From Limimaricola sp. (GTDB lineage: Bacteria; Pseudomonadota; Alphaproteobacteria; Rhodobacterales; Rhodobacteraceae), in the NCBI RefSeq assembly GCF_016125575.1, contig NZ_WGLM01000002.1, forward strand, positions 744,001 to 808,000: a stretch of DNA of 64,000 nt, in the 5' to 3' direction. Below the pieces are notes generated by a model. That model made no database searches. It was not told the DNA's origin and saw only the letters and a program-made list of their open reading frames with translations. Shown piece by piece: positions 12,272-35,717 of this stretch (its first letter is position 1; each line of letters begins with the position of its first letter). The position numbers were made by a program, and so were the translations under genes.

Positions 12272-12277
12272 GAAGTC

Positions 12278-12301: not shown

Positions 12302-12303
12302 AG

Positions 12304-13373: not shown

Positions 13374-13744
13374 TGGGTCGTCACGCTAAACCGGTGAGAC
13401 GCCAAGCTGCACCTTTCCTTCAAAAGACCCGCAACAGGTCTCTTGGGCGAAATCGCGACTTTTCTGAACGAGTCGAGTTTGCCAAGAGTCACACGCTAGC
13501 GACGGTTGCCACCCGCCCGGTCCCGGCCCTTAGCTGCCGTTCGGACGCCTCTAGGCCGACGTCCGCTTCGCGCCCCCAAGTCGGACGTTCTCTGTCCAGG
13601 TCAGGCGTCTTATAAGCTGACCGACCCCTTTCCCATGGTTAGCGCCGCATCGCACGGCAATCGTGAGTTCGGGCCCCCGGCGTTGCCATGGAAGCAGTAA
13701 TGGGGTTCTTGTATGGGCTTTTCACTCGGGAAAGATGCTGATGC
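13374..13744. other. Non-coding stretch between two convergent island genes
   Basis: This 371-base stretch lies between the stop of the cyclase-like gene and the stop of the HNH gene. No gene is supported. It holds one copy of the dispersed AGCnGCCGTTCg motif near 13532 and short GC-rich patches. No clear terminator is visible. Confidence 0.55.
13532..13544. repeat. Copy of dispersed motif
   Basis: AGCTGCCGTTCGG differs by one base from the copy at 12304 and lies in non-coding island DNA. Confidence 0.35.
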
Positions 13745-14593: not shown

Positions 14594-14596
14594 CGG

Positions 14597-16159: not shown

Positions 16160-16364
16160 TCCAATCTCCCCACGCATCGAGTGCCTTCATCAGTGATGCG
16201 GCACGCAACCTCATCGCTCCAACCCCACTCGCAGCCGTCTCGCCCGTTCGCGGAAAGCCACGCATACCCGCAAGCTCCTTTAAGCATCTAAGAAAATCCC
16301 TGGGCACCGCCTGCACCTCTTCAAGCGCGGCCAGGATCGGCGTCGTGATCGCTACCACTTTCAT
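16080..16364 (-). CDS. Possible small overlapping gene
   Basis: A 94-residue frame starting 'MKVVAITTPILAALEEVQAV' that bridges the 161-base gap between the GHKL-nuclease gene and the AAA ATPase gene. It overlaps the former by about 44 bases and the latter by 80. Composition is protein-like (helical, with Trp and Tyr in 'KALDAWGDWNEIYRQVQVWG'), but the long downstream overlap is a warning. If real it would be a small helical partner in the operon. No family is recognised. Confidence 0.4.
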   Translation of the reverse strand: MKVVAITTPILAALEEVQAVPRDFLRCLKELAGMRGFPRTGETAASGVGAMRLRAASLMKALDAWGDWNEIYRQVQVWGVANDQPLPPCRARPE

Positions 16365-18342
16365 CGGCGTCTTCGACGATGACACCTTCCAGAAACTGGC
16401 TATGTTTTTCCTGCAGATATCTGATCGCGGTACTTTCGTCGGCGGAATGCTGCAGATGCTCCTGGAAGAACTGAAGGCGAGCCCGATTTTCCTCGATGAG
16501 TTCGCCCCAGGTCTTTATGCCGACGATATGCCGCGGCCCCCGCGCGATCAGGCGGCGCTCGCGATCTGGACCACTTTCGATCTCATGCTTCGCGAAGTCG
16601 TCATAGGCGTTGGACACCAGCCAGAAGTGCCAGTGCACGCCGTCGACGGTCGAGAACCGCTCGTCTGACGTGACGGCGATTGCGTATTTCTTTGCCTGCG
16701 TGACCTCGTCGGCGCCGATCTTCACCTTCGGCGCCTTGAGCTCGACGATCATGTGCTCAATGTCGTTGGCACGATGCCGTCGCGTAGAGCGCGAAAACAT
16801 CAGGTCGATGATGCCGCGCGCCTTGCCGATCACTTTCACGGGCTCGTCGATCGCGATGTTCGGATCGAGATGGTCGCGATGCTTTTCGAGGACGCGACGG
16901 AGATCCTTGTCGCTCACCCAAAGATTATACTCCTCGCCAAACACCCAGGTATTTTCAGCGAGGATTTTGTGGAGCTGGGTGCGTTCCTTCAACCGGCCTT
17001 TGGTTCCCAGGTCGAAGACGATTGATTCGAGCGCGGAAATGAACTTCAGTCGATCGGCGACAGTTTTGGCGGCGGTGATGATCGCGGAGAGTGTCGTTTC
17101 CTGCAAAAGGTTCGCAAGCTCCTTCTGCTTGCGGGCCGGCAGGTCCAGAACCTCCTTCAGAATGAGCTGCAACTCCTCCGGTCCGCGCTCGATGGCGTTG
17201 CGCAGCATGCGAAGGTGCAGCGCCTTCGCCTTTGCCGAGCTGATGCCGAGATCGGGCGCAAGCTCCTGAACCTGAACCGCAACGATGTCGAACACCTGTC
17301 GCTCGACCTTCTCGACGGCGTTCTGCGGCGTGCCGCGATAGGGATAGACGTCTTCGGCGATCCACTCGTCGACCAAAGATCGCGCCCTTTCCGCCGATTT
17401 GTCGCGGAAATAGTCCTTGATTGTCGTTCGGGCATTTTCGACGGCTGCGCTCAGCAGGGGATCCATCTCCGAGAGCGCAACGCCTTCTTCGTTGTTCAAT
17501 TCCTCGACATAGGTAGATTTCAGATAGGCGGAGAAAGAAAAGCCGGGAATGTGGAAGCGCGTTTCGACCTGATCGAACGGAAAGCCGCTCGCGGAGCAAA
17601 GATAGAGGACTCGCCGCGCATCCGTTCGCCATTCGATGACATGGAGCTCGACATCGTGCCGGGCGCCATCATCCTTTTCGACCGGTGGCAGTGCCACTTT
17701 GTAGTCACTGGCGATGACCTTTTCGGGGTCGAGCCTATGACCGGCGATCGAGATCGACACGCCTCGATAGTTCATCAGGTAGAGCGCGAAGATCTCGTTC
17801 AGGTCCTGAAGGCCATCTTCGCTCTCGAAGGTCTTGAAATCGCGCCGGAGGTCGTCGATTTCGACGATGACCCCCGTTGAGCGCCCGAGCGCTGGCGCTT
17901 CCTCGGTGATGGTGACGTCGGTGAGATCGGCCTCGAGGAGCCGGACCTCGAACGCCTTACGCCCGGACGGATCGTCATAGCAGACCTTCCAGGTGACCGA
18001 CTGGCCGAGGGCGAACGCCTTGTAGCGGCCGCGCCCTTCCTGGCCGTGGATCATGCGGCGGTTGCGTTTGGTCTGGCGGACGTGGCGTTTCCAGGAGCCG
18101 CCGAGATTGCCGAACAGCGCCCGGGCGTCGCCGCGGGAAAATCCGTCACCATTGTCGTAAACGACGATTTTCGACATGCCGCCTGCGAGGTCGTTGTGCG
18201 CGAACTCAACCGATACCTCGGTGGCGTCGCCATCGAGGCTGTTCCACAGCAACTCCGCAAGTGCAGGCACCGGCTTCGCCTTGGTCTGTCGCGCGACGAA
18301 ATCATCTCTTACCGCGACGGATACGTGTTCCTCACCGGCCAT
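16321..18342 (-). CDS. GHKL (MORC/Hsp90-type) ATPase fused to PD-(D/E)XK nuclease
   Basis: A 673-residue protein. N-terminal GHKL ATPase: N-box 'ALAELLWNSLDGDATEV' (Glu30, Asn34), G1 'VYDNGDGFS' (Asp63, Gly65, Gly67), and G2 'HGQEGRGRYKAFALG' (100-114). A transducer-like middle and a helical region follow (about 280-440). The C-terminal part has 'GIIDLMF' (Asp513), 'MIVELKAP' (Glu534, Lys536) and a downstream Gln in 'EVTQAKKYA' (549), the order of a PD-(D/E)XK nuclease core related to DUF4263/Shedu-type domains. Prokaryotic MORC-like ATPases linked to nucleases are known in restriction-like contexts. Here it sits 60 bases after a HEPN gene in a five-gene operon. Likely a DNA- or RNA-clamping ATPase that licenses its own nuclease. 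Confidence 0.82.
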   Translation of the reverse strand: MAGEEHVSVAVRDDFVARQTKAKPVPALAELLWNSLDGDATEVSVEFAHNDLAGGMSKIVVYDNGDGFSRGDARALFGNLGGSWKRHVRQTKRNRRMIHGQEGRGRYKAFALGQSVTWKVCYDDPSGRKAFEVRLLEADLTDVTITEEAPALGRSTGVIVEIDDLRRDFKTFESEDGLQDLNEIFALYLMNYRGVSISIAGHRLDPEKVIASDYKVALPPVEKDDGARHDVELHVIEWRTDARRVLYLCSASGFPFDQVETRFHIPGFSFSAYLKSTYVEELNNEEGVALSEMDPLLSAAVENARTTIKDYFRDKSAERARSLVDEWIAEDVYPYRGTPQNAVEKVERQVFDIVAVQVQELAPDLGISSAKAKALHLRMLRNAIERGPEELQLILKEVLDLPARKQKELANLLQETTLSAIITAAKTVADRLKFISALESIVFDLGTKGRLKERTQLHKILAENTWVFGEEYNLWVSDKDLRRVLEKHRDHLDPNIAIDEPVKVIGKARGIIDLMFSRSTRRHRANDIEHMIVELKAPKVKIGADEVTQAKKYAIAVTSDERFSTVDGVHWHFWLVSNAYDDFAKHEIESGPDRERRLIARGPRHIVGIKTWGELIEENRARLQFFQEHLQHSADESTAIRYLQEKHSQFLEGVIVEDADESGSDHDADPGRA

Positions 18343-18402
18343 TTACCCTCCCAAGCCCATACGCGAGCCAGTTTACACGCCGACCACGCCGAGCGACAAA
18401 GT

Positions 18403-19356
18403 TCAGTACTCGTTGTTGTCATCTTCATATCCGGAATAGTCATCCTCAGGCGCATAATATTCGGCGGCGTCGTAGACTTGCGTCTTCTTGTAGCGATCGC
18501 TCAAGCCAACCACCACGAGACGCGACAGGCCGTTTATCTTGAGCCCGCACGCGACGCATTCGAACCGGTCTGGCAGAAATTCCTGGGTTTCGGTGATCTC
18601 GCCGTCGCTCAGCCGTTGCTGTGGCGCAGAGACCGATTCACCCCAAACGAGTGCCTGGGAGGTGCAGGCGGGACAATCGACGCGATGGCCGGCATGCCGC
18701 GTGGCCCAGACCGCGGCCTGTGTGGTCAGTGTGTTGCGCTCATCGAGAGGCTTGGCGAGCCAGACCTTTTTGTGGGCATCGACTTCGCCCTTAACCGCCT
18801 TCGCGCTGTCGTCGACAGCGGCGGCGATCAATTTCGTCGCTACATTTGCCTCATTCTCCCCAATGAAATCCTCAAGCGTCGCACCCATCGAGGCGAGAAG
18901 AATCTCACAGGTTTGGTAGAAGCGCGGCTGCCACGACGATCCCTTTACCCCGTCGAAGGCAAGCTCGCCGGAATGAAGCTCCGCGTTGCGGCGGCCCGTG
19001 TGTTGGATGCCGAAGCTTTCGTGCTCTTTGGCGAAATCTGGGAGGATGGCAGTGAGCCGCTTGAAGACCTCGCTGACGGCGATAGATTTTGGCGCGAACC
19101 GCTCCTCCGTGGGCGTGAAACCCAGCGCGTGATACAAGCTCGACCAGCTCTTATCGGTGTCCGCGATGAGGGCGGGACTGATATTGGCGAGCGCGGCGCG
19201 GGCGAGAAATTCAAGTGCAAGGCTGGACCATAGGGCATGTTCCCAGTCGTCGCTGCCGAATGCGCTCATATGCTGGATGTAGCGCTCTGCCTTGAGATAG
19301 AGCGCGTCCGGATCGCACGAGGCCGGCGTCGCGCCGGGTGAAATCGACTTCTTCAA
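18403..19356 (-). CDS. HEPN-motif protein with C-terminal zinc ribbon
   Basis: A 317-residue protein beginning at TTG, chosen because GGAGG lies 7 bases upstream and the TTGA overlaps the upstream stop by 4 bases. The only upstream ATG would overlap most of the dioxygenase gene. The N-terminal half is helical, and 'RRNAELHSGE' contains Arg123-Asn124-x3-His128, the R-N-x3-H motif of HEPN ribonucleases. The helices 'WEHALWSSLALEFLARAALA' and 'QTCEILLASMGATLEDFI' fit a HEPN bundle. The C-terminal part has 'CPAC' (228-231) and 'CVAC' (267-270), a four-cysteine zinc ribbon with an insertion, and ends in a very acidic Tyr-rich tail. Likely an RNA-targeting or toxin-like component. The HEPN call is by motif and helix pattern. 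Confidence 0.7.
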   Translation of the reverse strand: MKKSISPGATPASCDPDALYLKAERYIQHMSAFGSDDWEHALWSSLALEFLARAALANISPALIADTDKSWSSLYHALGFTPTEERFAPKSIAVSEVFKRLTAILPDFAKEHESFGIQHTGRRNAELHSGELAFDGVKGSSWQPRFYQTCEILLASMGATLEDFIGENEANVATKLIAAAVDDSAKAVKGEVDAHKKVWLAKPLDERNTLTTQAAVWATRHAGHRVDCPACTSQALVWGESVSAPQQRLSDGEITETQEFLPDRFECVACGLKINGLSRLVVVGLSDRYKKTQVYDAAEYYAPEDDYSGYEDDNNEY

Positions 19357-20009
19357 TGTAGCGCCTCCAGATACACGCGCTCGATCGCCCGGCTTTCGCG
19401 CCCGGGAAGGATCGGGGAACGGGCATGCAGCATCCGCCAATTGTCGATCAGGAGCGTGTCGTGAGTTTGGGCCAGCGACATCTCTGTCGGCGTGCATGTC
19501 GAAAGCCATTCACGAACACGAAGGTCGGCGACTTCGCCGATCCTGCTCGCCGGTTTCAGGAAGACCTCGTCCCAGCGAACCCGCACGACATCTTCGACGG
19601 GCTCGCAAAGGCGCAGGAGCGAGATGGTTCCGTCACGCGGTCTTCGCGGCTTGAAGATGGCGCGCGCCAGAATGTCGAGGGTGACGGCGTCGATAAGGTC
19701 GTACCCGTCGATCAGCAACGTCGGGATGTCTGAATAGCCGGTGACGCAGCGCAAAAGGAGGTATCGCGGTGGCGTGCGCCAGTGGGCGAGATCCGAGTGA
19801 AAAGGGAAAAGATTTAGGCCGAAAATACCGCTATAGCTGTTCGGTGCAGCCTCGCTGAGCGGCACGAGCGTCTGGACGAGTCGATCTTCCCATGGTTCCA
19901 GGGGTTTGCCAAAATCCTCCGCTATCTCGATGATGCTGTCGTTCGGCCTATGACTCCTGAAAAATATGTAGCCGCTTTTGCGGATCTCGTCTCTGATTTC
20001 TAGCGACAT
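19353..20009 (-). CDS. TauD/TfdA-like Fe(II)/2-oxoglutarate dioxygenase (first gene of island operon)
   Basis: A 218-residue protein. 'LFPFHSDLAHWRTPPRYLLL' gives the metal-binding His71-x-Asp73 and the TauD/clavaminate-synthase 'PP-x-Y' strand. 'TLLIDNWRMLHARSPI' gives the distal His195, and an Arg in 'SRAIERVY' (207 or 211) can bind 2-oxoglutarate. It is shorter than TauD (about 280) because of a trimmed N-terminus. The substrate is unknown. As leader of an operon of nuclease and ATPase genes it may modify a nucleic acid, nucleotide or protein rather than taurine-like compounds. The ribosome site is weak. Its stop is shared with the TTG start of the HEPN gene. Confidence 0.75.
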   Translation of the reverse strand: MSLEIRDEIRKSGYIFFRSHRPNDSIIEIAEDFGKPLEPWEDRLVQTLVPLSEAAPNSYSGIFGLNLFPFHSDLAHWRTPPRYLLLRCVTGYSDIPTLLIDGYDLIDAVTLDILARAIFKPRRPRDGTISLLRLCEPVEDVVRVRWDEVFLKPASRIGEVADLRVREWLSTCTPTEMSLAQTHDTLLIDNWRMLHARSPILPGRESRAIERVYLEALH

Positions 20010-23845: not shown

Positions 23846-25030
23846 TTAGCCCAGATAGGGCAGGCCGGCATAGTCATGCGCCAGCGCCGCCTGCGCGGTT
23901 TCCGAGCGCAGCAGCGTCTCGTATTCGGCCTCGACCAGCCGCGAGGTAAACGCATCGTCATCGGGATAGACATGAAGCAGACGGGTCAGGCGGCTGGACA
24001 GCGATTGTGCCGCCCAGATCCGGCGCAGCGCCGCGGCGGAATAGCCGTTGAGCAGCCGGTCGGTGCCCTCGGCGTAATGCGCGATCAGCCCCCGGGACAG
24101 GAAATAGACATCCGAAATGGCAAGGTTCAGTCCTTTGGCCCCGGTCGGCGGAACGATGTGGCCGGCGTCGCCGGCCAGATAAAGCCGCCCGTACTGCATT
24201 GGTTCCGTAACGAAACTGCGCAACGGCGCCATCGATTTCTCGATCGAGGGGCCGGTTTCGATCCGGGCAGCGATCTCGGGGGGAAAGCGGCGCAGCAGGG
24301 TGTCCCAGAACCTGTCGTCGGACCAATCCTCGGGGCTGTCGCTGATTGGGGCCTGCACGTAGTAACGGCTGAGCATCGGCGTGCGGCGCGAGGCCATCGC
24401 AAAGCCCTCGGCATGGCGGGCATAGGTGATATCCGGCAACGGCGGACGTTCCACCATGATGCCCAGCCAGCCAAACGGATAGCTGCGTTCATGGACCCGG
24501 CAGAGCTTGGAAGGAATGGCCGGGCGGCTGGGGCCGTGAAATCCGTCACAACCGGCGACAAAGTCGCAATCGAGCCGGTTATCCTGCCCCTGACGCCGAT
24601 AGGTGAGGTGGGGCGCTGGTCCGTCGATCCCGTGAAGTGCAACGTCCTCGGCCTCGTCAAGAACATCGCTGCCTGCAGCGGCCCGTGCCGCGTAGAGATC
24701 CTCGGTCAGCATAGTCTGGCCGTAGGCCATCATCTGCCGGCCGGTCCAGCGTGCGATGTCGATGAAATGCGCGGGCCTGTTCTGCCAGACAATCCATGCG
24801 CCGTTCTTGGGCATGCCGAGATCATCCATCCGGGTGCGCAGGCCGCTGGCGCGCAGGATATCGACGGAGTGGGATTCCAGCACTCCGGCCCGAATACGGC
24901 GCAGGACGGCTGACTTGCTTTGACGTTCGAGAATGACGTTATCGATGCCCGCCTGCGTCAGCAGCTGGCCAAGCAACAGGCCCGCCGGTCCGCCGCCGAC
25001 GATCGCGACCTGTGTCCGCTCTCTGCGCAT
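23846..25030 (-). CDS. pobA: 4-hydroxybenzoate 3-monooxygenase
   Basis: A 394-residue flavoprotein from the ATG at 25030, matching the family length (about 390). FAD-binding 'VAIVGGGPAGLLLGQLL' (about residues 8-24), the mid-protein 'DFVAGCDGFHG' (DG motif for FAD/NADPH), and 'YLAGDAGHIVPPTGAKGLNLAISDV' broken by family-typical residues are those of PobA. It hydroxylates 4-hydroxybenzoate to protocatechuate with NADPH and oxygen, feeding the beta-ketoadipate pathway. It is divergent from a chorismate-lyase-like gene whose product would be 4-hydroxybenzoate. The upstream extension to 25249 is not conserved. Confidence 0.92.
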   Translation of the reverse strand: MRRERTQVAIVGGGPAGLLLGQLLTQAGIDNVILERQSKSAVLRRIRAGVLESHSVDILRASGLRTRMDDLGMPKNGAWIVWQNRPAHFIDIARWTGRQMMAYGQTMLTEDLYAARAAAGSDVLDEAEDVALHGIDGPAPHLTYRRQGQDNRLDCDFVAGCDGFHGPSRPAIPSKLCRVHERSYPFGWLGIMVERPPLPDITYARHAEGFAMASRRTPMLSRYYVQAPISDSPEDWSDDRFWDTLLRRFPPEIAARIETGPSIEKSMAPLRSFVTEPMQYGRLYLAGDAGHIVPPTGAKGLNLAISDVYFLSRGLIAHYAEGTDRLLNGYSAAALRRIWAAQSLSSRLTRLLHVYPDDDAFTSRLVEAEYETLLRSETAQAALAHDYAGLPYLG

Positions 25031-25217
25031 GACGCCCGGTTCCCAATGCCATTGATAGCGACAGGGTGCCGCGCTGTTCCGGCCAAGACAAGGGGCTTCG
25101 CCGCCATCCTTGCCCTGCCGCAGCACTGGCAGGGGCCGCGACGTTTTGGTAGGGTGAAAGCATGGGTCGCACGGTGTGGCCCGCCTGTCTTTCGAGTTTG
25201 CGGGGGTTGATCGGGCG

Positions 25218-25721
25218 ATGACGGAGTCGTGGTCTTGCCAGCCGGCCACGGCAGAGCGTCTTGCCCTTGATTTACTGATGCATGACGGGCTGATGACCCC
25301 AGTGCTGCAGAGTCGTTTCGGGCCGATGTATGCCGTCGAGCTTCACCGCTCCGAAACCGGCGATCGCTATGATCGTGTCTCGGAAGTGCGTCAGCGCGGC
25401 ACCGGGCTGTTGCTGCTTGATTCACGGATGTCGATTCGGGTCAGCGCGCTGCCTGCCGCGATGCTCGATGCCCTTCGCAACACCGACACGCCATTTGGCC
25501 AATTGCTGCAAGGCGCAGGCATTGCTGCGCGTTCGGTCTCTCGGGAAATCACGCGGCTGGCTGGCGAGGATGGCGCGCCCGATCGGCTGGGCCGGCGGCA
25601 CATCATCGTCGATGCCGCGACCGACGCGCCGATCTGCGATCTGCACGAGGTGCTCAACCATGCCGAGGTGCTGCTGGCGGCGGCCGGACCGATGGCGGGC
25701 GGGATCCGGCATGGTGCATGA
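25218..25721 (+). CDS. Chorismate-lyase (UbiC)-like protein
   Basis: A 167-residue protein from the ATG at 25218; UbiC of E. coli is 165. The order of segments, 'MTPVLQSRFGPMYAVELHRS', 'RVSEVRQRGTGLLLLDSRMSI' and 'LRNTDTPFGQLLQGAGIAARSV', follows the UbiC/UTRA-fold layout (initial helix, strand with Arg, then 'L..t.tPLG.lL'). Known UbiC enzymes cut chorismate to 4-hydroxybenzoate and pyruvate. Direct divergence from pobA, the consumer of 4-hydroxybenzoate, supports but does not prove this. It overlaps the following monooxygenase gene by 11 bases. It may instead bind aromatic ligands without catalysis. Confidence 0.6.
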   Translation: MTESWSCQPATAERLALDLLMHDGLMTPVLQSRFGPMYAVELHRSETGDRYDRVSEVRQRGTGLLLLDSRMSIRVSALPAAMLDALRNTDTPFGQLLQGAGIAARSVSREITRLAGEDGAPDRLGRRHIIVDAATDAPICDLHEVLNHAEVLLAAAGPMAGGIRHGA

Positions 25722-27288
25722 TTGCGTGGTGATCGGCGCAGGGCCCGGCGGGCTGGTGGCGACAAAGGAACTGGTCGAGGCGGGCATCGCCGATGTCCTT
25801 TGCCTTGAGGCATCCGACCGGATCGGTGGGCTGTTCGCGAAGGGCTATGACAACCTGCTGCTGACGTCCTCGGCGGTGTTCAGCATGTTCTCGGATTTCT
25901 GGATCGGGCCGGGGCCGCTGCACCGCTTCTGGACCAAGGCCGAGGTCGTCGAGTACTGGACGCGCTATGCCGCGGCCTTCGGCGTGCTGGAGCTTATCCG
26001 CTTCGGCGCGCGGGTCGAGGCGCTGCGGCAGGCCGCTGACGGCACATGGCAGGTGCAGCTGGCCGGTGGCGAGGTGGTGCGCGCGGCCCGGGTCGTGCTG
26101 GCCTCGGGCGCCAACAACGCGCCGCGCTATCCCGACTGGGCGGCGGGGCTGACGGCGATCGATGCCGTGCATGCGGCCGATTACCGGAACGCCGCGGCAC
26201 TGGAGGGCAAGCGCGTGCTGCTGGTGGGCGGGGGCGAAAGCGCGGCTGATATCGGGCTGGAGATCTCCCGGGTGGCAGGCCGGACATGGCTCAGCCTGCG
26301 CGGTGCCACCGGCTGGGTCACGCCCCGGATGCGCGGCGAGATCGCGGCGGACACGGCAACCCATCGCGGGGTCTGGGGTCTGCCGCGCAGCCTGGGCCCC
26401 TGGATCAGCCAGCGGGTGTTGGCGTTCGAGGCCGCCAGGGACGATCCGGTGTCGCAGGCGACGGTGATGCTGAACCGCCTCGTCAGTGCGCGCGGCGGCA
26501 TCTGGGGCACCTACGGCACCAAGTCGCTGGGCCTGTCGACGGCCATCGCCCATCACGGGATGGAGGTGGTGGACGAGATCGTGACCGTCGGGCAGGGCGG
26601 GCGGCAGCTGACGACCGCGTCGGGCGCGGTGCTGGACGATGTCGACGCGGTGGTCTTCTGCACCGGCTATACCAGCCGCGTGCCCTTCCTGCCCGAGGGC
26701 CTGCGCGCGCGGTCCCCGCGCAGCCTTTACAAGCAGGTCTTCGATCCCGGCACCGGCGCGACGCTGGCCTTCGTCGGTTGGGCGCGCCCCTGTTTCGGCA
26801 GCCAGTTCCCGATCATGGAAATGCAGGCGCGCCTTGTCGCGCGGGTGTTCGGCGGGGCGCAGGCCCTGCCGCCACCGGACGAGATGACGCGCGTAGCGGC
26901 CCGCGATGCCGCGCGCTTTGGCGCGCAGCTCGGCCATCATGGCGAGCGCGTGCAAAGCCTTGTCGATTATCACCTTTACGTGGACGACATCGCGCGTCTG
27001 ATCGGCTGTCTGCCGCCATTCGGGCGGCTGTTGACCCGCCATCCGCGACTTTGGCTGCGCGTCGTCTATGGCCCGACGCAGGCCACCCAGTTCCGGTTGC
27101 GCGGCCCCGGCGCCAAGCCGTCGCTTGCGCGCGAGATCATCGCGCGGCTGCCCGTCAGCCCGTTCAACCACATGGTCAAGGCAGGGTTGCTGGGCCGGCT
27201 TCGGGTGGCGCTGGGACAGGTGGTGCCGCGCAGGGTGAGGCCGGTGCAGGTCGGCGCCCCGGCCTTGCAACGGAAGGGTGGCGGCTGA
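25711..27288 (+). CDS. FMO/BVMO-type flavin monooxygenase
   Basis: A 525-residue protein. The first dinucleotide-binding motif is 'CVVIGAGPGGLVATKEL' (FAD), 'DRIGGLF' follows, and the second is 'VLLVGGGESAADIGLEI' (NADPH). Between them 'VHAADYRN' fits the FMO/BVMO fingerprint H-x3-Y. 'VFCTGYTSRVPFLP' is the conserved ATG/CTG-Y motif before the C-terminal domain. Such enzymes oxygenate soft nucleophiles or ketones. The substrate is unknown. It overlaps the UbiC-like gene by 11 bases and the sulfotransferase by 1, so the three are cotranscribed. Confidence 0.88.
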   Translation: MVHDCVVIGAGPGGLVATKELVEAGIADVLCLEASDRIGGLFAKGYDNLLLTSSAVFSMFSDFWIGPGPLHRFWTKAEVVEYWTRYAAAFGVLELIRFGARVEALRQAADGTWQVQLAGGEVVRAARVVLASGANNAPRYPDWAAGLTAIDAVHAADYRNAAALEGKRVLLVGGGESAADIGLEISRVAGRTWLSLRGATGWVTPRMRGEIAADTATHRGVWGLPRSLGPWISQRVLAFEAARDDPVSQATVMLNRLVSARGGIWGTYGTKSLGLSTAIAHHGMEVVDEIVTVGQGGRQLTTASGAVLDDVDAVVFCTGYTSRVPFLPEGLRARSPRSLYKQVFDPGTGATLAFVGWARPCFGSQFPIMEMQARLVARVFGGAQALPPPDEMTRVAARDAARFGAQLGHHGERVQSLVDYHLYVDDIARLIGCLPPFGRLLTRHPRLWLRVVYGPTQATQFRLRGPGAKPSLAREIIARLPVSPFNHMVKAGLLGRLRVALGQVVPRRVRPVQVGAPALQRKGGG

Positions 27289-27938
27289 TGGCGTTGCAGG
27301 TGATCGGCGCGGGATTCGGGCGCACCGGGACGCATTCGCTGAAACTCGCGCTCGAGGCGCTGGGGCTGGGGCCGTGCCACCACCTTTACGAGGTGCGGGA
27401 CAATCCCGCGCTGCTGCCGCCCTGGCAGGAGGCCGCGGCAGGGCGGTTGCCTGACTGGGACCGGCTGTTTGCGGGCTTCGGCGCGGCGGTCGACTGGCCT
27501 GCATCGTGCTACTGGCGAGTTCTGGCGCGGCATTACCCGCAGGCGAAGGTGATCCTGACTGTGCGCGATCCCGACGACTGGTTCGAAAGCTTGCGCCAGA
27601 CCGTTATCCGCTCGATCACCTTGGGCCGTCTGCAAGATCCAAACCCACATACCCGCGCCGTTGCAGAGATGATCTATCAGACCGTTTACGTGGGTCTGTT
27701 CCAGGGCCGCATGGAAGAGCGCGCCTATATGCTTGATGCGTTCTCGCGGTGGCGCCGGGAGGTTGAAGCGGACCTGTCGCCCGACCGCCTTCTGATCTAC
27801 GACGTGCGCGAGGGCTGGGGGCCCCTTTGCGCGTTTTTGGGGCGCGAAGCACCTAAAGAGGCATTTCCGCGCACCAATTCGATCGAAGAATTCCTGAGCC
27901 GCAAGCCGTTTCTAAGCGACGGTCGCGCGTCGGACTAA
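27288..27938 (+). CDS. Sulfotransferase-family protein
   Basis: A 216-residue protein whose ATG overlaps the upstream TGA. 'VIGAGFGRTGTHSLKLAL' is the 5'-phosphosulfate loop of the Sulfotransfer_4 type, and 'VILTVRDPDDWFES' the 3'-phosphate-binding region. The C-terminal 'LLIYDVREGWGPLCAFLG' is also typical. It would transfer a sulfo group from PAPS to a hydroxylated small molecule, possibly the product of the upstream monooxygenase. A truncated homologue lies at 20711-20915. The last 4 bases overlap the convergent SDR gene. Confidence 0.85.
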   Translation: MALQVIGAGFGRTGTHSLKLALEALGLGPCHHLYEVRDNPALLPPWQEAAAGRLPDWDRLFAGFGAAVDWPASCYWRVLARHYPQAKVILTVRDPDDWFESLRQTVIRSITLGRLQDPNPHTRAVAEMIYQTVYVGLFQGRMEERAYMLDAFSRWRREVEADLSPDRLLIYDVREGWGPLCAFLGREAPKEAFPRTNSIEEFLSRKPFLSDGRASD

Positions 27939-28903
27939 TGCCCGGCGATGCGGGCCCGAAGAAAGCCGCCTTGTCTGGCGTAGGTTCGCGGCCCCACCGA
28001 CAGCGCGTCACGGATGCAGGCGTCAAGATCGTGCGTGAAGGCAAAGGATGCCATCTCGGGCCGCGCCGAGACAAAGACGTTGTCGCGCGCAGTGACAGAC
28101 CAGAAATTTGCAGGATCGGGCGTGAAATCGACGATTGGGGGCAGCGGTGCACCCAGTTCGGTAGCGACGCGGGCGTAGTAATCAAACGCCCGCACCGGCG
28201 TGGGATGGGCAAGGTTGACGGTCGTCCGGCGCAGCCCTGTCCGCGTCAGCAGGTGGAGCGCCGCCGCGCCCAGATCGGCCGGGTGGATGATTGACAGGCG
28301 CACATCGCCCCGCCGGGCCAGCTGCAGCGGTTCGCCTGCCGCGATGATGTCCAGCAACCGGGCGTCACGGTTATGCGCGGGGATGCAGCCGAGAAGTGAG
28401 CCGCGCCCAAGGATGTGATGCGCCCTCAGGATCAACCAGTCGGGAAATGTCCCGACGCGCCACGATGCCTCGAGCGCGAGCTTAGTAGCCTGATACGGGG
28501 GGCAGGGCGTGGCAATCAGCGGGCAGGTTTCGTCGATTGGCGCACGTCCGTCATGATCGTAGAGCAGGCATGAGCTGAGGACTGCTACCGGGGCCCTCAA
28601 CGCCGCGGCGGCGCAGGCCAAGTCTGCCGCGACATCGCCGGTGCAGCCGAATACATCAAGGATGCCAATGACACGATGCGTCCGGCGGACCCCGTCCAGC
28701 GCGGCGGTCAGCGCGCCGGGCGGCGCGGTGGCAAAGTCAAGTCGAATGTTGTCATGCCCAGGCGACCGCGCATCGGGCGAGAGCGAGACCGAGACGAAAT
28801 GAATGCCGCTGACGCGCAGCACGCCGGCGAGCGCAAAGCCAATCACGCCCGTCCCGCCAAGGCAGATGAAGGCGGGCGGCAGTTTGGGCAAGGCGAGTGG
28901 CAT
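27935..28903 (-). CDS. NAD-dependent epimerase/dehydratase (extended SDR)
   Basis: A 322-residue protein with an N-terminal 'ICLGGTGVIGFALAGVL' nucleotide-binding loop, 'VFGCTGDVAADLACAAAALRAPVAVLSS' leading to the Ser of the active site, and 'YQATKLALEA' with the catalytic YxxxK. Late segments 'SIIHPADLGAAALHLL' match the extended SDR substrate domain. It acts on a nucleotide sugar or other alcohol/ketone; the substrate is not identifiable. It is convergent with the sulfotransferase gene and separated from the outer membrane protein gene by a terminator. Confidence 0.82.
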   Translation of the reverse strand: MPLALPKLPPAFICLGGTGVIGFALAGVLRVSGIHFVSVSLSPDARSPGHDNIRLDFATAPPGALTAALDGVRRTHRVIGILDVFGCTGDVAADLACAAAALRAPVAVLSSCLLYDHDGRAPIDETCPLIATPCPPYQATKLALEASWRVGTFPDWLILRAHHILGRGSLLGCIPAHNRDARLLDIIAAGEPLQLARRGDVRLSIIHPADLGAAALHLLTRTGLRRTTVNLAHPTPVRAFDYYARVATELGAPLPPIVDFTPDPANFWSVTARDNVFVSARPEMASFAFTHDLDACIRDALSVGPRTYARQGGFLRARIAGH

Positions 28904-28992: not shown

Positions 28993-29613
28993 TCAGAAGC
29001 GGTAGGAGGCGCGCAGCGAAACCGTGCGGTTCGAAGTCGTGGCGGTTTGCGGGTCGTTGTTGCTGTCGTAACCGGTCATGTTACGTTGGATTACCTCGAC
29101 GCCGACCGAGAATTGCGGCGCGACCATCACTTCGGCCCCGAGGCCAAAGTTTGTGCCGAAGGCAATATAAGACCCACCGCTGTTGGCCGCGGTATTTATC
29201 ACCGAACCGCCGGCAAAACCGTAGGCATGCATACCACCCATAGGCGTCGCAAACTCTTTGCCTAGGCTGAACTTCGCGTCTGCGATCGGACTGCTGGAAT
29301 AGGGCGCGTTGGGATCTGTATAGGTCCCGGTAGGGTCAGCGCCGTTGGCAAACGAGATGGCCAGTTCCTTACCGAAGATCAGGCCATTGCCCAATGTCGT
29401 ATTGGTACCGACGAACAGGCCGCCAACCGCAGAGCTGTTGTAGCCGTAAGTGTAGTCAGGCGAGTCGGCCCACGGCATCGTCCCGCTGTTAGAGCCGACG
29501 GAAAGACCGGCATACATGCCGTCCCAAGATTGCGCCATCAGCGCATGACTTCCGGCCACAAGTGCCGCAGCCGACGCCAGTCCAGTCTTCAAGCCTTTCG
29601 AATAGTCCATCAC
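28993..29613 (-). CDS. Outer membrane beta-barrel protein (porin family)
   Basis: A 206-residue protein. A signal peptide ending in '..GSHALMAQ' (cleavage near residue 28) precedes 'SWDGMYAGLSVGSNSG', the typical first strand of small OmpA/Omp25-like barrels. Alternating hydrophobic strands follow, and the protein ends '..VSLRASYRF' with the C-terminal Phe recognised by the BAM complex. About eight strands are expected. A GGGAGCGAGTG ribosome site precedes the ATG. The 204 bases upstream are lower in G+C than the surroundings and probably hold its own promoter. A terminator follows. Function beyond barrel is unknown. Confidence 0.88.
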   Translation of the reverse strand: MMDYSKGLKTGLASAAALVAGSHALMAQSWDGMYAGLSVGSNSGTMPWADSPDYTYGYNSSAVGGLFVGTNTTLGNGLIFGKELAISFANGADPTGTYTDPNAPYSSSPIADAKFSLGKEFATPMGGMHAYGFAGGSVINTAANSGGSYIAFGTNFGLGAEVMVAPQFSVGVEVIQRNMTGYDSNNDPQTATTSNRTVSLRASYRF

Positions 29614-29817: not shown

Positions 29818-31275
29818 TCAGTCTTGTTCTGTGCGGATGAGTTTGAGGATCAGCGCTGCGCATTCCGTGCGATTCGGACGTCCGTCGGCTCGGCGTGGGA
29901 TGCCTGCGACGCCTTGGATCACCCTTGGAACGAAGGCCGGACCGGCCCCTTCGCGACAACGGTACTTCGCGGTCGCGACCGCCTGCAGGCGGTTGCAATC
30001 GGGCGCGAAGACCACGAAGGCGAAGAGTTCGGCCGGTGCGCCCGGCTTGGGGTTCATGAAGCAGGCCGCATCGAGAATGCCATCGACCTCGCGCAGGATC
30101 GCGTCGATCGCCATCGCCTCGAGCTTGAGCCCGCCAATGTTGATGACGTCGTCATCGCGCGAGACGATGCGCAGCGCGCCGGTCGCGGTCAGATAGCCGA
30201 TGTCGCCGGGATGGAACCATCCGTCACGAAAGGCGCGGGCCTGAGCCTCAGGTGCGTTGAGGTAGCCGCGGGCAAGATAGCTGTTGCGCACGCGGACCAG
30301 GCCCGGCTGGCCCTGCGGAACGGGGTTGCCGGCCTCGTCGACGATCTCGATCTCGCATCCCGTCTGCACGCCCATCACGCGGATCTGTCCGTCCGCGGGC
30401 CGGGTCATGCGGTTGATGTGGCTCTTGTTGGTCTCGCTTGCGCCGTAGACGTCATCGACGGTCTCGAAACTGTCGAGCAGGCGCCCGGCCTCGTCCAGCG
30501 ACAGCGGCGCGCCGCTGATCTCGAGCTTCGGGCAGCGATGGGCCAACGTGCCGCCGGCCAGCGCCGTGCGGATCTGCGGCTGCGAGGCGCAGACCATCGT
30601 CACGCCGAAGCGGTGCCAGTCGGCCGGGGCGACGCCATCGACCAGCGTACTGCCATGCATCAGTGCCGCACAGATCCGCGCAAAAAACGGGCGGCTGGTG
30701 CTGGGAAAGAGGCTGACGAACCGGGTGTTGCGGCCATCGAAATCATAGGCCACGGCGAGCGAGCGGTCCGTCACCATGCGCTGGCTGAGCGCGAGGTATT
30801 TCGGATAGCCCGTCGTGCCGGACGTATGCACGATCAGCCAGTCGGCGTCGGCGTCGGCCGCGCCGGGAAAGACGGGCGCGCCCGGCCCTTCAAGCGTCAG
30901 CGCAGTGGGCGACCAGTCCGGCCCGATGAGCAGGCTACCCGCCGGCGCGGCCCCGGCCCGATCGGCCGTGTGGACGCGGTGGGTGACACTGAGCGAGGCA
31001 TCGAGCGGCTCCGGCCCGCCCTGGAGAAAGCGCGCGCCCAGAAGCGAGGTTGCCATAAGCAGGGCGGTGACGGTCGCCGTCTCGTTCCCGTCGAGGGCCA
31101 CCAGCGCGCCGGGGCCGACGCCGGCCTCGGCCAGGCGCACCGCGAAGGCCTGCGACAGCCGCCAGAGGTTGCGATAGGAAATCTCGACATCGGGAAAGAC
31201 CAGCGCCGGCACGGCGGGCTGGTGGGCCGCCATGGCGGCGAGGGCGGCGGCGACGGTGGCTTCGGGCAGGGACAT
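29818..31275 (-). CDS. Adenylate-forming (AMP-binding) enzyme, tandem paralogue 1 of 4
   Basis: A 485-residue ANL-superfamily protein from the ATG at 31275. The A3 loop is 'HTSGTTGYPKYLALSQR' (about 150-166), A5 'DVYGASETNKSH', A7 'DGWFHPGDIGY', A8 'SRDDDVINIGGLKLEA'. The A10 region reads 'IPRRADGRPNRTEC', where the lysine needed for adenylation in acyl-CoA synthetases is replaced by Arg. It is last in the four-gene array, 14 bases after paralogue 2. Family members activate carboxylates as acyl-AMP and often load CoA or a carrier. No carrier protein or thioesterase is nearby. Substrate unknown. Confidence 0.85.
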   Translation of the reverse strand: MSLPEATVAAALAAMAAHQPAVPALVFPDVEISYRNLWRLSQAFAVRLAEAGVGPGALVALDGNETATVTALLMATSLLGARFLQGGPEPLDASLSVTHRVHTADRAGAAPAGSLLIGPDWSPTALTLEGPGAPVFPGAADADADWLIVHTSGTTGYPKYLALSQRMVTDRSLAVAYDFDGRNTRFVSLFPSTSRPFFARICAALMHGSTLVDGVAPADWHRFGVTMVCASQPQIRTALAGGTLAHRCPKLEISGAPLSLDEAGRLLDSFETVDDVYGASETNKSHINRMTRPADGQIRVMGVQTGCEIEIVDEAGNPVPQGQPGLVRVRNSYLARGYLNAPEAQARAFRDGWFHPGDIGYLTATGALRIVSRDDDVINIGGLKLEAMAIDAILREVDGILDAACFMNPKPGAPAELFAFVVFAPDCNRLQAVATAKYRCREGAGPAFVPRVIQGVAGIPRRADGRPNRTECAALILKLIRTEQD

Positions 31276-31289
31276 GGCGATGGGGTCTT

Positions 31290-32771
31290 TCAGCGGGGCT
31301 GGGGGGACAGGTTGATCGGCACCTGCCGCGCGATGTCGAGGGCCAGCCGCTGGCATTCGCTGCGGCGGGGGATGCCGTCGAAGGTCTTGGGAATGGCCTG
31401 CACCACGTAGATGCGCGCGGGCGTGAAGAGGGGGCCCAGCCTAGCCGTGCAGGCGTCGTGGGCCTCTTGCGCCGCGCGGTCGGGATCGACACCCGGCGCG
31501 ACCACGAGGAAGGCCGCAAGGCCCGGCGCCGTGGCCGGGTCCGGGTCGCGGAAGCAGACCGCCTCGGTCACGCCAGCGGCCTCTGCCAGGGCGGCATCGA
31601 CAATGGAGGGGTGCAGTTTCTGCCCGCCGAGATTGATCACCTCGTCCACCCGCCCCTCGATCCGAAGATCGCCGCGCGGGCCCCAGCTGGCGTAATCGCC
31701 GGGCAGGAACCAGCCATCTTGAAACGCCCGCGCTGTGGCCTCGGGCGCGTCGATATAGCCGGGCGCCATGTAGCCGTTGCGCACGCGCACTGTGCCGATC
31801 TCGCCCGGCGCGCAAGGCTCGAAACTGGGCCCGATGATCTGGACCTCGCTGTCGCAGGGCTTGCCGGTGCTGACGACGCGGCCATCCTCCAGCGACTTGA
31901 GGTTGACGAAGCTCTTGTTGGTTTCGCTGGCGCCGTAGACGTCTTCGACGACGTCGAAACTCTGCAGCAGCGCCTCGGCCTGTGCGTCGCTCAAGCGCGT
32001 GCCCGAGACCTGCAGGCGCGGCAACTTGGGTGCAAGAACGCGCCCGTCGAGCCAGGCCAGCGTCTGCAGCGGCGCGCCGCAGACCAGCGTCACGCCGTGG
32101 GCGCGCATGAAGGCCGGATCGACCGTATCGACGATCGGGCAGCCGTTCAGCAATGCCGCGGTCGCCCGCACGAAGAAGGGCCGCGCGGTGCAGACGAAGA
32201 GTGAGCACAGCACCGTCCGGCCCGGCACGAAATCGTTGCGCACGGCGTAAGATCGGGCAACGATCGCGCGCTGGCCCAGCTGCATGAACTTGGGCCGTCC
32301 AGTTGTTCCCGATGTATGAATGATCCACCACGGTGCGTCAGGGTCTGGCGGTGATGGCGGGGCAAACGTTACAGCCTCGGGCGGGGCGAACCGGGGCGAC
32401 CATGTCGCGTCAATCTCGATACTGGAAATGCCGCTCAGAGGTGGTGCCTCGGGCGTGCGAAGAACATGACTGGGGCGCACGGATGGCACTTCCCAAAGCA
32501 CGTCTTCCAGCGTCTCGAACCGCGCCCCAAGCATCGCGCTCGCCAGCATGGTGGCAAGTGATGCTATCAGATCGGTTGTATGCAGGGCTACGGTGGTGCC
32601 GGGCCCGATATCCTCCTTGTGCATCCGGAAGGCAAAGCTGCAGGAAAGTTGCCAAAGCTTTAGGTTGCTCAGCGTTATATCGGCTGCGATGACGGCCGGC
32701 GCATCGGGCTGCGCCTCGACCACGGCGCGAAAACCTTCGGCAATAGTGGTCGGGCCCGCCTGCTCAGTCAT
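31290..32771 (-). CDS. Adenylate-forming (AMP-binding) enzyme, tandem paralogue 2 of 4
   Basis: A 493-residue protein of the same family as its neighbours: A3 'HTSGTTGRPKFMQLGQR', A5 'DVYGASETNKSF', A7 'DGWFLPGDYASW', A8 'GRVDEVINLGGQKLHP', A10 'IPKTFDGIPRRSEC' with Ile at the usual Lys position. Its start overlaps the stop of paralogue 3 by 8 bases, so it is translationally coupled. The N-terminal 140 residues are the most divergent part between paralogues, suggesting different substrates. It could be an acyl-CoA-ligase-like enzyme with reduced or altered chemistry. Confidence 0.85.
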   Translation of the reverse strand: MTEQAGPTTIAEGFRAVVEAQPDAPAVIAADITLSNLKLWQLSCSFAFRMHKEDIGPGTTVALHTTDLIASLATMLASAMLGARFETLEDVLWEVPSVRPSHVLRTPEAPPLSGISSIEIDATWSPRFAPPEAVTFAPPSPPDPDAPWWIIHTSGTTGRPKFMQLGQRAIVARSYAVRNDFVPGRTVLCSLFVCTARPFFVRATAALLNGCPIVDTVDPAFMRAHGVTLVCGAPLQTLAWLDGRVLAPKLPRLQVSGTRLSDAQAEALLQSFDVVEDVYGASETNKSFVNLKSLEDGRVVSTGKPCDSEVQIIGPSFEPCAPGEIGTVRVRNGYMAPGYIDAPEATARAFQDGWFLPGDYASWGPRGDLRIEGRVDEVINLGGQKLHPSIVDAALAEAAGVTEAVCFRDPDPATAPGLAAFLVVAPGVDPDRAAQEAHDACTARLGPLFTPARIYVVQAIPKTFDGIPRRSECQRLALDIARQVPINLSPQPR

Positions 32772-34230
32772 GGGCTAAATATCGCTCCAGCAGCAGTTGC
32801 TGACAGACCGCGCGCAGCGGCCGGCCCGCGGCATCGCGCGGAACTTCGGTGATCGGACGGATATTGCGCGGCGCCAGCACGACGCCGAGCCGCCGCTTGC
32901 ACACGTCCATGGCTTCGACCGTGGCACGGCCAACCTCGACAGTGCCGTCGAAGACGGCGAAGGCCAGAAGTTCATTTGCCGCGCCAGGTTTTGGATTCTT
33001 GAAGCAGACTGCGTCCTTAATGCCGGGCACAGTCGTCAGCAGGAAATCGACGACGAGGCCCATCACCTTCTGACCGCCGAGGTTGATCATGTCATCATCG
33101 CGCCCCATCACCGTCAATTCGCCCCGCGCGCCCCAGACGGCGATGTCGCCGGGATGGAACCAGCCATCGCGGAATAACCTCGCACTGGCTTCGGGGTGGG
33201 CGATGTAGCCTTGGGTCATGTAGGGGTTACGCACGCGCACCGCGCCAATTTGGCCGGGCGCGCAGGGCAGTCCATTGTCGGTCACGATCTCGACGCTGCT
33301 GTCGAGTTTCTGGCCGGTTCGGGTGACTTCACCTTCGGGGCTAACATCGACACGATTGGCAAAGCTCTTGCTGGTTTCGCTAGCGCCGTAGACGTCGATC
33401 ACTTCGACGAAATGCTGGCTGAACAGGCGTGCATGCTCGTCCGACAGGGCCGCACCGCTGACTTCAACCCGCGCGATGCGCGGAGCGATCGGGTTGATTT
33501 CAAGAAACCGGGCCAGCTGGGCGGGCGAGGCGAAGACGAGGTTCACCCCCGCCTGCCGCCAGAATGCGGGATCGGTTCCTTCGACGATGGCCCCTAGATG
33601 CAGCAGCGCCCCCAACGCGCGGGCGTAAAACGGCCGGGAAGTGACACCGAAGAGCGTGGCGAAGGTGACCGCCCCGCGGGGAAAATCCGGGGCCACCGCC
33701 ATCGTGCGGCCATGTACCATCCGCTGGCTGAGGGCGATGTATTTCGGTGCCCCTGTCGAGCCGGAGGTATGCAGGTACATCCACGGGGCGTCGGGATCGG
33801 CGTAGCCGGGAAAGCGAGCCGGGTCCGGGTCTTCGCCGGGACGGGCGAGCCAGCTGTCTTCGATCACCTCGAATTGCACGCGGTCACTTCCGCGCACTTC
33901 GGGACTGCGGAGGAAATGCGTCGGCTGAAGCACACCGGACTGGGCAAGAATCTGACCGGCCTCAACGAACCGCGCGCCCAGCAGGGCTGTGGCCAGCAGG
34001 ACGCCCAGTGACAGCGGCATCGACGTCGTGTTGAGCGCCACAAGGCTATCTTGGCCAATGCCCCGTTCCTGCATGCGGGCGGCCAGCACCCGGACCAGAT
34101 GCCAGAGCTGCGCGTAGCTGATGACGAGCCCGTCCGAGATCAGGGCAGGAAAATCGCCACCGTCTTCGGCCACTTGGCCGAAGGCGAATCCGAGATTGAG
34201 CGGCTGCTCCTCGTGCGGTGAGATCATCAA
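32764..34230 (-). CDS. Adenylate-forming (AMP-binding) enzyme, tandem paralogue 3 of 4
   Basis: A 488-residue protein. A3 'HTSGSTGAPKYIALSQR', A5 'DVYGASETSKSF', A7 'DGWFHPGDIAVW', A8 'GRDDDMINLGGQKVMG', A10 'VPRDAAGRPLRAVC' with Arg instead of Lys. Its start overlaps the end of paralogue 4 in a 4-base overlap. Like the other members it lacks a signal peptide or membrane segments and should be cytosolic. The gene order 4-3-2-1 with 4, 8 and -14 base junctions shows one polycistronic unit. Confidence 0.85.
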   Translation of the reverse strand: MMISPHEEQPLNLGFAFGQVAEDGGDFPALISDGLVISYAQLWHLVRVLAARMQERGIGQDSLVALNTTSMPLSLGVLLATALLGARFVEAGQILAQSGVLQPTHFLRSPEVRGSDRVQFEVIEDSWLARPGEDPDPARFPGYADPDAPWMYLHTSGSTGAPKYIALSQRMVHGRTMAVAPDFPRGAVTFATLFGVTSRPFYARALGALLHLGAIVEGTDPAFWRQAGVNLVFASPAQLARFLEINPIAPRIARVEVSGAALSDEHARLFSQHFVEVIDVYGASETSKSFANRVDVSPEGEVTRTGQKLDSSVEIVTDNGLPCAPGQIGAVRVRNPYMTQGYIAHPEASARLFRDGWFHPGDIAVWGARGELTVMGRDDDMINLGGQKVMGLVVDFLLTTVPGIKDAVCFKNPKPGAANELLAFAVFDGTVEVGRATVEAMDVCKRRLGVVLAPRNIRPITEVPRDAAGRPLRAVCQQLLLERYLAHD

Positions 34231-35717
34231 TGTCCTGCCTGCGCACCCTGCGCAGCCCGCAGATCACGATAGAGCTTCTGGCACAAGAACCGCTTGGCAC
34301 CGCCGTCATGGGCACGCGGCACCTTGTTGACCTCGACAAAGCGGGCCGGGCGTCGCGCCGGGCCAAGTCGGGCAGCGAAAGCGGCCCTCATCGCCTCTGC
34401 GATGGTTGTGCCATCGGCACCGGGCGCGAAGACCACGAAGGCGAGAAGCTCGCTGGGCCCACTTTCGCGCGGGTTTTCGAAACACATCGCATCGGCGACG
34501 CCCGGCACCGATTGCATCACCTCGTCGATTTCCAGTGCATTCACCTTCACGCCGCCAAGGTTGATGACATCGCCCGCGCGCCCGATCACTTGCAGACCAC
34601 CTTGTGGCCCCCAAAGGGCCAGATCGCCGGGGTAGAACCAGCCGTCGCGAAAGCTTGCCGCCTGCGCTGCGGGGTTGTTGAGGTAGCCCGGAGCAAGATA
34701 GCCGTTGCGCACCCTGACCCTCCCGACCTCGTTCTGGCCAACCGGCTGGCCGGCGTCATTCACGATCTGCACTTCGGCATCGGTGGCCTGCCCGGTGGTC
34801 ACGATGCGGCCGTCCGGGCTCAGCGACTTGATGTTCTTGAAACTGCGGTTGGTCTCTGTCGATGCATAAAGATCGATCACCTGATCAAAGCTTTGCAGCA
34901 GGTGGCGGGCGAGCGCATCGGTCAGCTTCGAACCCGAGACGTGGATCAGCGGCATCTTCTGCGGCAGCACCCTGTGGCCGAGCAGGTCGGCGACCTGCGT
35001 GACCGAGCCGTAGACATGGTTTACACCCGCCGCCCGCCACATCGCAGGATCAAGAGCGTTCACCATGGTGCATCCGTTCACGAGGCAGGCAGTGGCACGA
35101 ACGAGGTGCGGGAAGGCCGAGCAGATGAAGAGGCAGGCCATCACCGTCTCGCGCGGGCGGAAATCGTCCAACACCGCACTGGCACGATCAAGCATGATCC
35201 GTTGGGACAGGCAGACAAGTTTGGCGGTGCCCGTGGTGCCCGAGGTGGGCGCGTAGATCCACGGCGCCTCAAGATCGGCAGGGCCGGGAAAAGCCGCATC
35301 ATCTGCGGCAGACGGGGCCGGCCCGGTAAACCAGCCCGGTTCGATCACGATTGTGATGGGCGCGGTAGGGTCGGGCGCGGCAGGATCGGTCGTGATGTGA
35401 TGGGTGGGGTGAAGATCGGCCTTCAGCGGTCGCGCGGCGCGCGCCGCGACCCAGCAAGCACCCAAAAGTGCCGAGGCCATCAGGGTTCCAAAAACAGTTA
35501 CAGGGTCGTCTGCGTCGATGGACAAGATGGAACCGGGCCCGATGCCGCGCGCCTGAAACTGTTGGGCCAGCCTGCGCAGGATGCCCGCGAACTGGGAGAA
35601 GTCGATCATGCTTTCCCGGGTCACGATCGCCAACAGGTCAGGATTGGCTGCGGCGGTCGCCAATACGGCGCGCCCGGCATTGCTCCCCGGCAATGACGCG
35701 GTTGCAGTGACAGACAT
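34227..35717 (-). CDS. Adenylate-forming (AMP-binding) enzyme, tandem paralogue 4 of 4 (first in operon)
   Basis: A 496-residue protein and the most divergent of the four: A3 'PTSGTTGTAKLVCLSQR', A5 'DLYASTETNRSF' (the Gly before Ala/Ser is lost), A7 'DGWFYPGDLALW', A8 'GRAGDVINLGGVKVNA', A10 'VPRAHDGGAKRFLC', with Gly at the usual Lys position. It heads the array. The 187 bases between it and the next upstream gene should hold the operon promoter, but I see no strong consensus there. No carrier protein, condensation or thioesterase domain is present in any of the four. Confidence 0.83.
   Translation of the reverse strand: MSVTATASLPGSNAGRAVLATAAANPDLLAIVTRESMIDFSQFAGILRRLAQQFQARGIGPGSILSIDADDPVTVFGTLMASALLGACWVAARAARPLKADLHPTHHITTDPAAPDPTAPITIVIEPGWFTGPAPSAADDAAFPGPADLEAPWIYAPTSGTTGTAKLVCLSQRIMLDRASAVLDDFRPRETVMACLFICSAFPHLVRATACLVNGCTMVNALDPAMWRAAGVNHVYGSVTQVADLLGHRVLPQKMPLIHVSGSKLTDALARHLLQSFDQVIDLYASTETNRSFKNIKSLSPDGRIVTTGQATDAEVQIVNDAGQPVGQNEVGRVRVRNGYLAPGYLNNPAAQAASFRDGWFYPGDLALWGPQGGLQVIGRAGDVINLGGVKVNALEIDEVMQSVPGVADAMCFENPRESGPSELLAFVVFAPGADGTTIAEAMRAAFAARLGPARRPARFVEVNKVPRAHDGGAKRFLCQKLYRDLRAAQGAQAGH

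Follow-up and report, generated by a model that had tools for sequence, protein, structure and literature searches.

A 64,000-nucleotide window of the Limimaricola sp. genome (family Rhodobacteraceae; assembly GCF_016125575.1, contig NZ_WGLM01000002.1, forward-strand positions 744,001 to 808,000) contains, at window positions 29818-35717, four complete minus-strand open reading frames (ORFs) that encode related proteins of the ANL superfamily. Numbered in transcription order, the members of this array are:

34227..35717, minus strand: ANL1, first array gene, 496 residues (alternative start at 35693); motif A5 YASTETNRS; motif A10 GGAKR (Lys replaced by Gly).
32764..34230, minus strand: ANL2, 488 residues, TTG start; A5 YGASETSKS; A10 GRPLR (Lys replaced by Arg).
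31290..32771, minus strand: ANL3, 493 residues; A5 YGASETNKS, with the basic residue K286; A10 GIPRR (Lys replaced by Ile).
29818..31275, minus strand: ANL4, 485 residues, or 512 from an upstream ATG at 31356; A5 YGASETNKS; A10 GRPNR (Lys replaced by Arg).

The ORF coordinates confirm the arrangement described in the original prediction, namely four related genes of 485-496 residues placed head-to-tail with 4- and 8-base overlaps and one 14-base gap, and the fourfold duplication, in what is probably a single operon, is real and conserved across genera. The A5 sequence YGASETNKS, previously ascribed to three of the four, is exact in two. The proteins match the Pfam AMP-binding family (PF00501) at 91-105 bits (cut-off 29.9) and carry the A3 lysine, the A5 tyrosine and glutamate, the A7 aspartate and the A8 arginine of the ANL superfamily, so that their earlier assignment to the adenylate-forming superfamily holds as far as membership is concerned; plain adenylate-forming chemistry is doubtful, the A10 lysine being gone. 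The pairs measured within the array share 37-44% identity, and the other ANL matches listed from the same genome reach at most 35%. None of the 25 NCBIfam models listed for each array protein (25 of the 88-91 matched) reached its cut-off.

Arrays of this kind occur in several genera. A match at E <= 1e-60 was present in 3 genomes of a first set of 41 (the Limimaricola genome itself, 24 of the family and 16 of the class), and 8 of 394 family genomes had a match at E <= 1e-80, with at most three candidates scored per genome. When these eight were followed up (E <= 1e-40), the Limimaricola genome (G000), G012 and G179 each proved to have four array-type genes and G200 two; G016, G213, G339 and G380 each had one relative. 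G000 additionally encodes, at C3:8820, a single-gene relative that keeps the lysine and may supply the adenylate, and C1 has a weaker match; at the same threshold, no such relative was found in G012, G179 or G200, where arrays are present. A scan of named genomes, from which the best 80 of 276 were kept, gave 77 loci (L numbers). Loktanella sp. IMCC34160 (L031), Yoonia tamlensis (L035), a metagenome-assembled genome (MAG) of Phaeovulum (L034) and other MAGs (L032, L033, L037, L041) carry arrays. Three genes make up the versions of Tabrizicola soli (L040), strain IMCC 34051 (L051) and L038, and array pieces are present in L036, L039, L043, L049 and L060, of which L036 and L039 belong to one MAG labelled Hyphomicrobiales. 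G012 and L034 look like one genome, as do G179 and L031. In the loci listed, adjacent array genes either overlap or are separated by no more than 56 bases, the start codons being of our choosing, and an ANL2 query found no match among plasmids. The adjacency is thus not unique to this strain (such uniqueness would have spoken against the original prediction), and a strain-specific duplication is rejected because arrays are present in several genera. Two array copies in one MAG, ZH-Jul18-90 (L049 and L060), are each split into several frames, through either decay or assembly error.

An IQ-TREE phylogeny was built from 60 rows (48 from arrays, 6 from single-gene relatives and 6 outgroup rows, with no characterised ligase among them). 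The broken frames of L049 and L060, readable in pieces only, were left out, as were the first gene of L037 (cut by a contig end), the single-gene relatives L044 and L047, and the duplicate of one G200 gene. Four outgroup branches were flagged by the program as long, and four rows as unusual in composition. All 48 array rows form one starred clade (support 100/99), apart from the single-gene relatives and the outgroup rows. Within it, ANL1 (9 rows, 99/92), ANL3 (13 rows, 100/99) and ANL4 (11 rows, 99/96) are starred clades, while ANL2 has a starred core of 10 rows (100/95) and weaker support for all 12 (94/73); a further, unstarred branch (92/89) joins the L024 gene of G200 with the fourth genes of L035 and L037. 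Over seven complete arrays, operon position changes three times on the tree, the minimum for four states, versus at least 11 changes (mean 15.7) in 300 within-locus shuffles of position. Since the four clades recur in a fixed gene order, the duplications are old, and the four genes are old, separately conserved paralogues. That separate ligases were joined by chance is unlikely, because the array forms one starred clade in this tree without characterised ligases.

The A10 lysine (GKxxR) of classical adenylate-forming ligases is missing from all four window genes. It is gone from 44 of 46 readable array rows and kept in two (ANL2 of L040 and the L024 gene of G200); the remaining two of the 48 rows, from the second gene of L036 and the last gene of L033, are cut and unreadable at A10. 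A wider count (46 without the lysine, two with it, two unreadable) contains one G200 gene twice and one L049 piece, and 44 of 46 is the clean figure. In contrast, the lysine is kept in 91 of 91 readable comparators gathered through other motifs or whole-protein searches (8 single-gene relatives, 7 other ANL proteins of the same genome and 76 others), 5 further comparators being gapped at this site. Elsewhere in the AMP site, the A5 glutamate is retained in all 48 array rows, the A3 lysine and the A7 aspartate in 46 each, and the A8 arginine in 45. Only in ANL1 is the A10 lysine replaced uniformly, by glycine in 8 of 9 rows; the ANL2 clade shows R, L, T, S, N and E, and the ANL3 clade mostly V, plus T, A, I and N. 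The history of the lysine on the tree takes three changes if regain is allowed and eight losses if it is not; it may have been lost once or repeatedly. In excerpts of the published work, this lysine is the key catalytic residue; it contacts the alpha-phosphate, and its conservation is high among aryl-, acyl- and fatty acyl-CoA ligases (PMC8388817). In the ANL enzyme PKAL-1, changing the lysine to alanine abolished activity (PMC8363725). Because the lysine is missing, ordinary adenylation by the array proteins is, to judge from their sequences, doubtful.

A second trait of the array was gained. Residues following the A5 glutamate line the acyl pocket, and the third of them (E+3) is basic in all 46 non-degenerate array rows (K in 34, R in 10, H in 2; two degenerate genes were omitted from the 48) versus none of the 12 single-gene and outgroup rows. 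In a wider alignment, which includes the same two extra rows, the figures are 48 of 50 array rows versus 2 of 96 others. Likewise, R202 is present in 46 of the 46 array rows versus 4 of the 12 others. Taken together, the A5 basic residue and R202 suggest either that the array proteins share an anionic ligand, for example one with a sulfate or a second acid group, or that the catalytic cation has moved. An AlphaFold2 model of ANL3 (mean predicted local distance difference test (pLDDT) score 93.4, 54 sequences) shows the whole two-domain ANL fold. Foldseek ranks the salicylate enzyme PchD and 4-chlorobenzoate:CoA ligase highest for this model, and its best Z score, 39.9, is to oxalate-CoA ligase 5ie2_A (root-mean-square deviation (rmsd) 4.3, 462 aligned residues); the matches are near ties, and the fold therefore does not name a substrate.

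These data bear on a rather doubtful alternative, in which the four proteins are conventional adenylating ligases for a related series of acids, each with its own substrate, the A5 lysine or arginine or the A10 arginine having taken over the role of the lysine. The AMP-site residues are mostly intact, the genes are under purifying selection, aryl-acid enzymes are among the best solved relatives, two array members retain the A10 lysine, and the new basic residue at E+3 aligns with Asn311 of 4-chlorobenzoate:CoA ligase (our own count of the residue number). However, different residues occupy the A10 site within a clade, as they would under little constraint, and the inactivity of the published lysine mutant, as far as that source excerpt goes, argues against this alternative.

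Selection was estimated from nine orthologue pairs drawn from five loci, which are not independent, and at synonymous divergences (dS) of 0.98-1.41, near saturation. The ratio of nonsynonymous to synonymous rates (dN/dS) is 0.12-0.23 for the eight intact pairs, indicating purifying selection, and 0.36 for a degenerate ANL4-clade gene shared by L038 and L051. In this gene the A3 lysine, A5 tyrosine, A7 aspartate and A8 arginine are gone, with the frame still open and constrained; it falls below the Pfam AMP-binding cut-off, while its C-terminal domain passes in L038; the last array member of this lineage looks like a pseudoenzyme. Together with the loss of the A10 lysine in all four clades, such a gene, open in frame and devoid of most AMP-site residues, would fit a mostly non-catalytic array, a pseudoenzyme scaffold or a complex binding an adenylate-like ligand. 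This is considered unlikely, as the AMP-site residues are kept nearly everywhere else, beyond what a scaffold needs.

Downstream of the array lie six further genes that recur with it. Their presence was counted by tblastn with the window proteins in 17 array loci (the window, L031-L041, L043, L049, L051, L060 and L108; two pairs come from one MAG each, and several contigs are cut):

28993..29613, minus strand: small outer-membrane beta-barrel (PF13505, 43 bits, cut-off 28.7); 15 of 17 array loci and 6 of 8 single-gene loci.
27935..28903, minus strand: NAD-dependent epimerase/dehydratase-like protein (PF01370); 7 of 17 array loci.
27288..27938, plus strand: sulfotransferase (PF17784, Sulfotransfer_4); 11 of 17 array loci.
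25711..27288, plus strand: FMO-like flavin monooxygenase (PF00743); 6 of 17 array loci.
25176..25721, plus strand: protein of 181 residues with a predicted chorismate-lyase fold and no Pfam match; 8 of 17 array loci.
23846..25126, minus strand: PobA-like 4-hydroxybenzoate 3-monooxygenase (PRK08243, 507 bits, cut-off 351); 7 of 17 array loci.

The barrel noted downstream in the original prediction is therefore real and a conserved neighbour. The eight single-gene loci have none of the other partners, and the LysR and amidase genes upstream of the array in the window occur in none of the 16 other array loci. The PobA-like protein scores 517 bits against TIGR02360, short of the equivalog cut-off of 538.7, and belongs to the broader PRK08243 subfamily; in G000, G012 and G179 no gene other than the PobA-like one matches TIGR02360 at E <= 1e-60, and the single match in G200 lies away from the array locus and above the cut-off. 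Sulfotransferases of this kind use 3'-phosphoadenosine 5'-phosphosulfate, and an adenosine 5'-phosphosulfate kinase is encoded in all four array genomes searched (G000, G012, G179 and G200).

The neighbours scanned with Pfam include no carrier, thioesterase, condensation or CoA-transferase domain, in agreement with what had been noted from the sequence, although a complete lack of partners was too strong a statement, given that genes further downstream recur with the array. The two PP-binding matches of the genome (C5:842350 and C3:427665) are away from the array (about C5:773800-779700), and carrier loading finds no partner beside it. Of the earlier suggestion of a biosynthetic or surface-modification pathway, the recurring partners make the biosynthetic part likely; nothing besides the barrel speaks for surface modification. 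That the locus instead breaks down aromatic acids, with CoA ligases acting beside the PobA-like hydroxylase and the barrel serving uptake, is very unlikely: the PobA-like enzyme and the likeness to benzoate-type ligases would suit such a role, and some single-gene relatives and the array locus L034 lie, by eye, near putative carboxylate uptake proteins, but a chorismate-lyase-fold protein and a sulfotransferase suit synthesis and decoration, not degradation, and the six recurring clusters have no look of ring cleavage or transport, most unshared neighbours being outside that scan.

Several other features accompany these loci. A second conserved locus (L109:8826-13903 on C3 of the same genome, L042 and L044-L048) carries a single lysine-bearing relative, the barrel (not found in L047) and, after the barrel, two more ANL genes in opposite directions; in several cases it lies, by eye, near putative carboxylate uptake proteins. 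The G200 locus L108 is a small version of the array, with one ANL gene lacking the lysine, one bearing it, the barrel and the sulfotransferase, and offers a natural test of division of labour. Elsewhere in the window, a lower-GC stretch (10520-19754) follows a tRNA gene (10520-10592) and is probably a defence island: it includes a phage-type integrase (11165-12271), a PADLOC PDC-M01A/B match pair formed by a PtuA-like ATPase (14597-16177) and an HNH-like protein (13745-14593), and, beside this pair, a HATPase-domain protein (16321-18342). PtuA belongs to the Septu system.

The 25176-25721 protein has no PDB match by phmmer, profile matches only at E 0.23 or worse, and no match to Pfam Chor_lyase (PF04345), which also finds none in its genome. 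A model of 25203-25721 (mean pLDDT 84.8, six sequences) superposes on the DUF98 protein AF1396 (2nwi; Z 15.7, rmsd 2.3, 135 aligned residues, 16% identity) and on the chorismate lyase UbiC (1g81 and 1fw9; Z 11.9, 20-23% identity), and on this modelled fold the protein is likely a chorismate lyase. Relatives at E <= 1e-8 occur in 5 of 394 genomes, G000 and G179, which have arrays, and G313, G334 and G407, which have no array match at E <= 1e-80 and no other partners near the relative. In three genomes (loci L116-L118) the lyase-fold relatives stand without array or partners, in L116 amid housekeeping-type genes by eye; these relatives are perhaps the ordinary 4-hydroxybenzoate source of some Rhodobacterales.

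The reading tentatively preferred here, at less than even confidence, is that of a Rhodobacterales biosynthetic locus for a sulfated, chorismate-derived aryl acid, in which the ANL proteins are non-classical and probably non-adenylating acyl-handling subunits. Judging from family membership and linkage, chorismate would be converted to 4-hydroxybenzoate, probably by the chorismate-lyase-fold protein, and this to a 3,4-dihydroxy acid, probably by the PobA-like hydroxylase; the product would be modified by the sulfotransferase, the FMO-like enzyme and the epimerase-like protein and handled at the outer membrane by the barrel. ANL1-4 would most likely skip the full ligase reaction and take a ready-made aryl-adenylate, or an aryl-CoA plus AMP. 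They would probably cooperate as a hetero-oligomer, because the genes are closely coupled, their order is fixed and one lineage has a pseudoenzyme-like last member. The more specific proposal, that of one hetero-oligomeric machine of four paralogues acting on such an acid after the adenylating lysine was given up or moved to A5, is possible yet rather unlikely.

Several observations weigh against this biosynthetic, non-adenylating interpretation. Two of the four window genes have arginine at A10, which might partly stand in for lysine. ANL2 of L040 and the L024 gene hold both the A10 lysine and the A5 basic residue, so there was no strict swap of one for the other; the A5 residue may have arisen first, or may serve a different purpose, for instance to bind an anionic ligand group. 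GntR effector domains match the 25203-25721 model at similar Z, up to 12.3, and the fold is therefore no proof of lyase activity. Array genomes G012 and G200 have no lyase-fold relative at E <= 1e-8 and three of the five holders have no array, which makes the link between that protein and the array loose. Apart from the barrel, the partners are unevenly distributed (FMO in 6, PobA-like in 7 and lyase-fold in 8 of 17 loci, some on cut contigs), the G200 locus has only two ANL genes, the barrel and the sulfotransferase within 20 kb, and the window's cluster contains no lysine-bearing adenylating partner.

Known systems resemble the locus in part. In platensimycin biosynthesis, the half-reactions appear to be separated between PtmA1 and PtmA2 (PMC6594144), ANL-fold proteins of which, from the excerpt of that paper, one is apparently non-adenylating; however, these form a pair, whereas here four paralogues without the lysine share one operon and the window's cluster has no lysine-bearing ANL gene. 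4-Chlorobenzoate:CoA ligase and the adenylating enzymes PchD (salicylate) and EntE (2,3-dihydroxybenzoate) share the fold and motifs A3, A5, A7 and A8, and aryl-CoA ligases and PchD/EntE-type enzymes are among the top sequence and Foldseek matches, but the array differs in lacking the A10 lysine, in its basic E+3 residue and in having no adjoining carrier protein. The xiamenmycin cluster encodes the chorismate lyase XimC and the ANL amide synthetase XimA (PMC4053376), and, as its excerpted description has it, the cluster-borne lyase supplies an acid that a stand-alone ANL protein conjugates; that five-gene cluster, so described, has a single XimA and no array, sulfotransferase or barrel. UbiC and AF1396 are comparable to the 25176-25721 protein in predicted fold, whereas the latter has no Chor_lyase match and a fold that is also that of GntR effector domains. 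No description of such a cluster or array was found in open-licence full texts, a search that does not establish its absence from print.

Collectively, a conserved four-paralogue set that is under selection, lacks the A10 lysine and lies near genes hinting at a product offers a direct test of what an ANL fold does without this lysine. An acyl-CoA synthetase label for such genes may be wrong, and a hetero-oligomeric ANL machine without the adenylating lysine would, if true, be a new use of the ANL fold. The locus suggests that Rhodobacterales make an uncharacterised aromatic product, perhaps a sulfated one.

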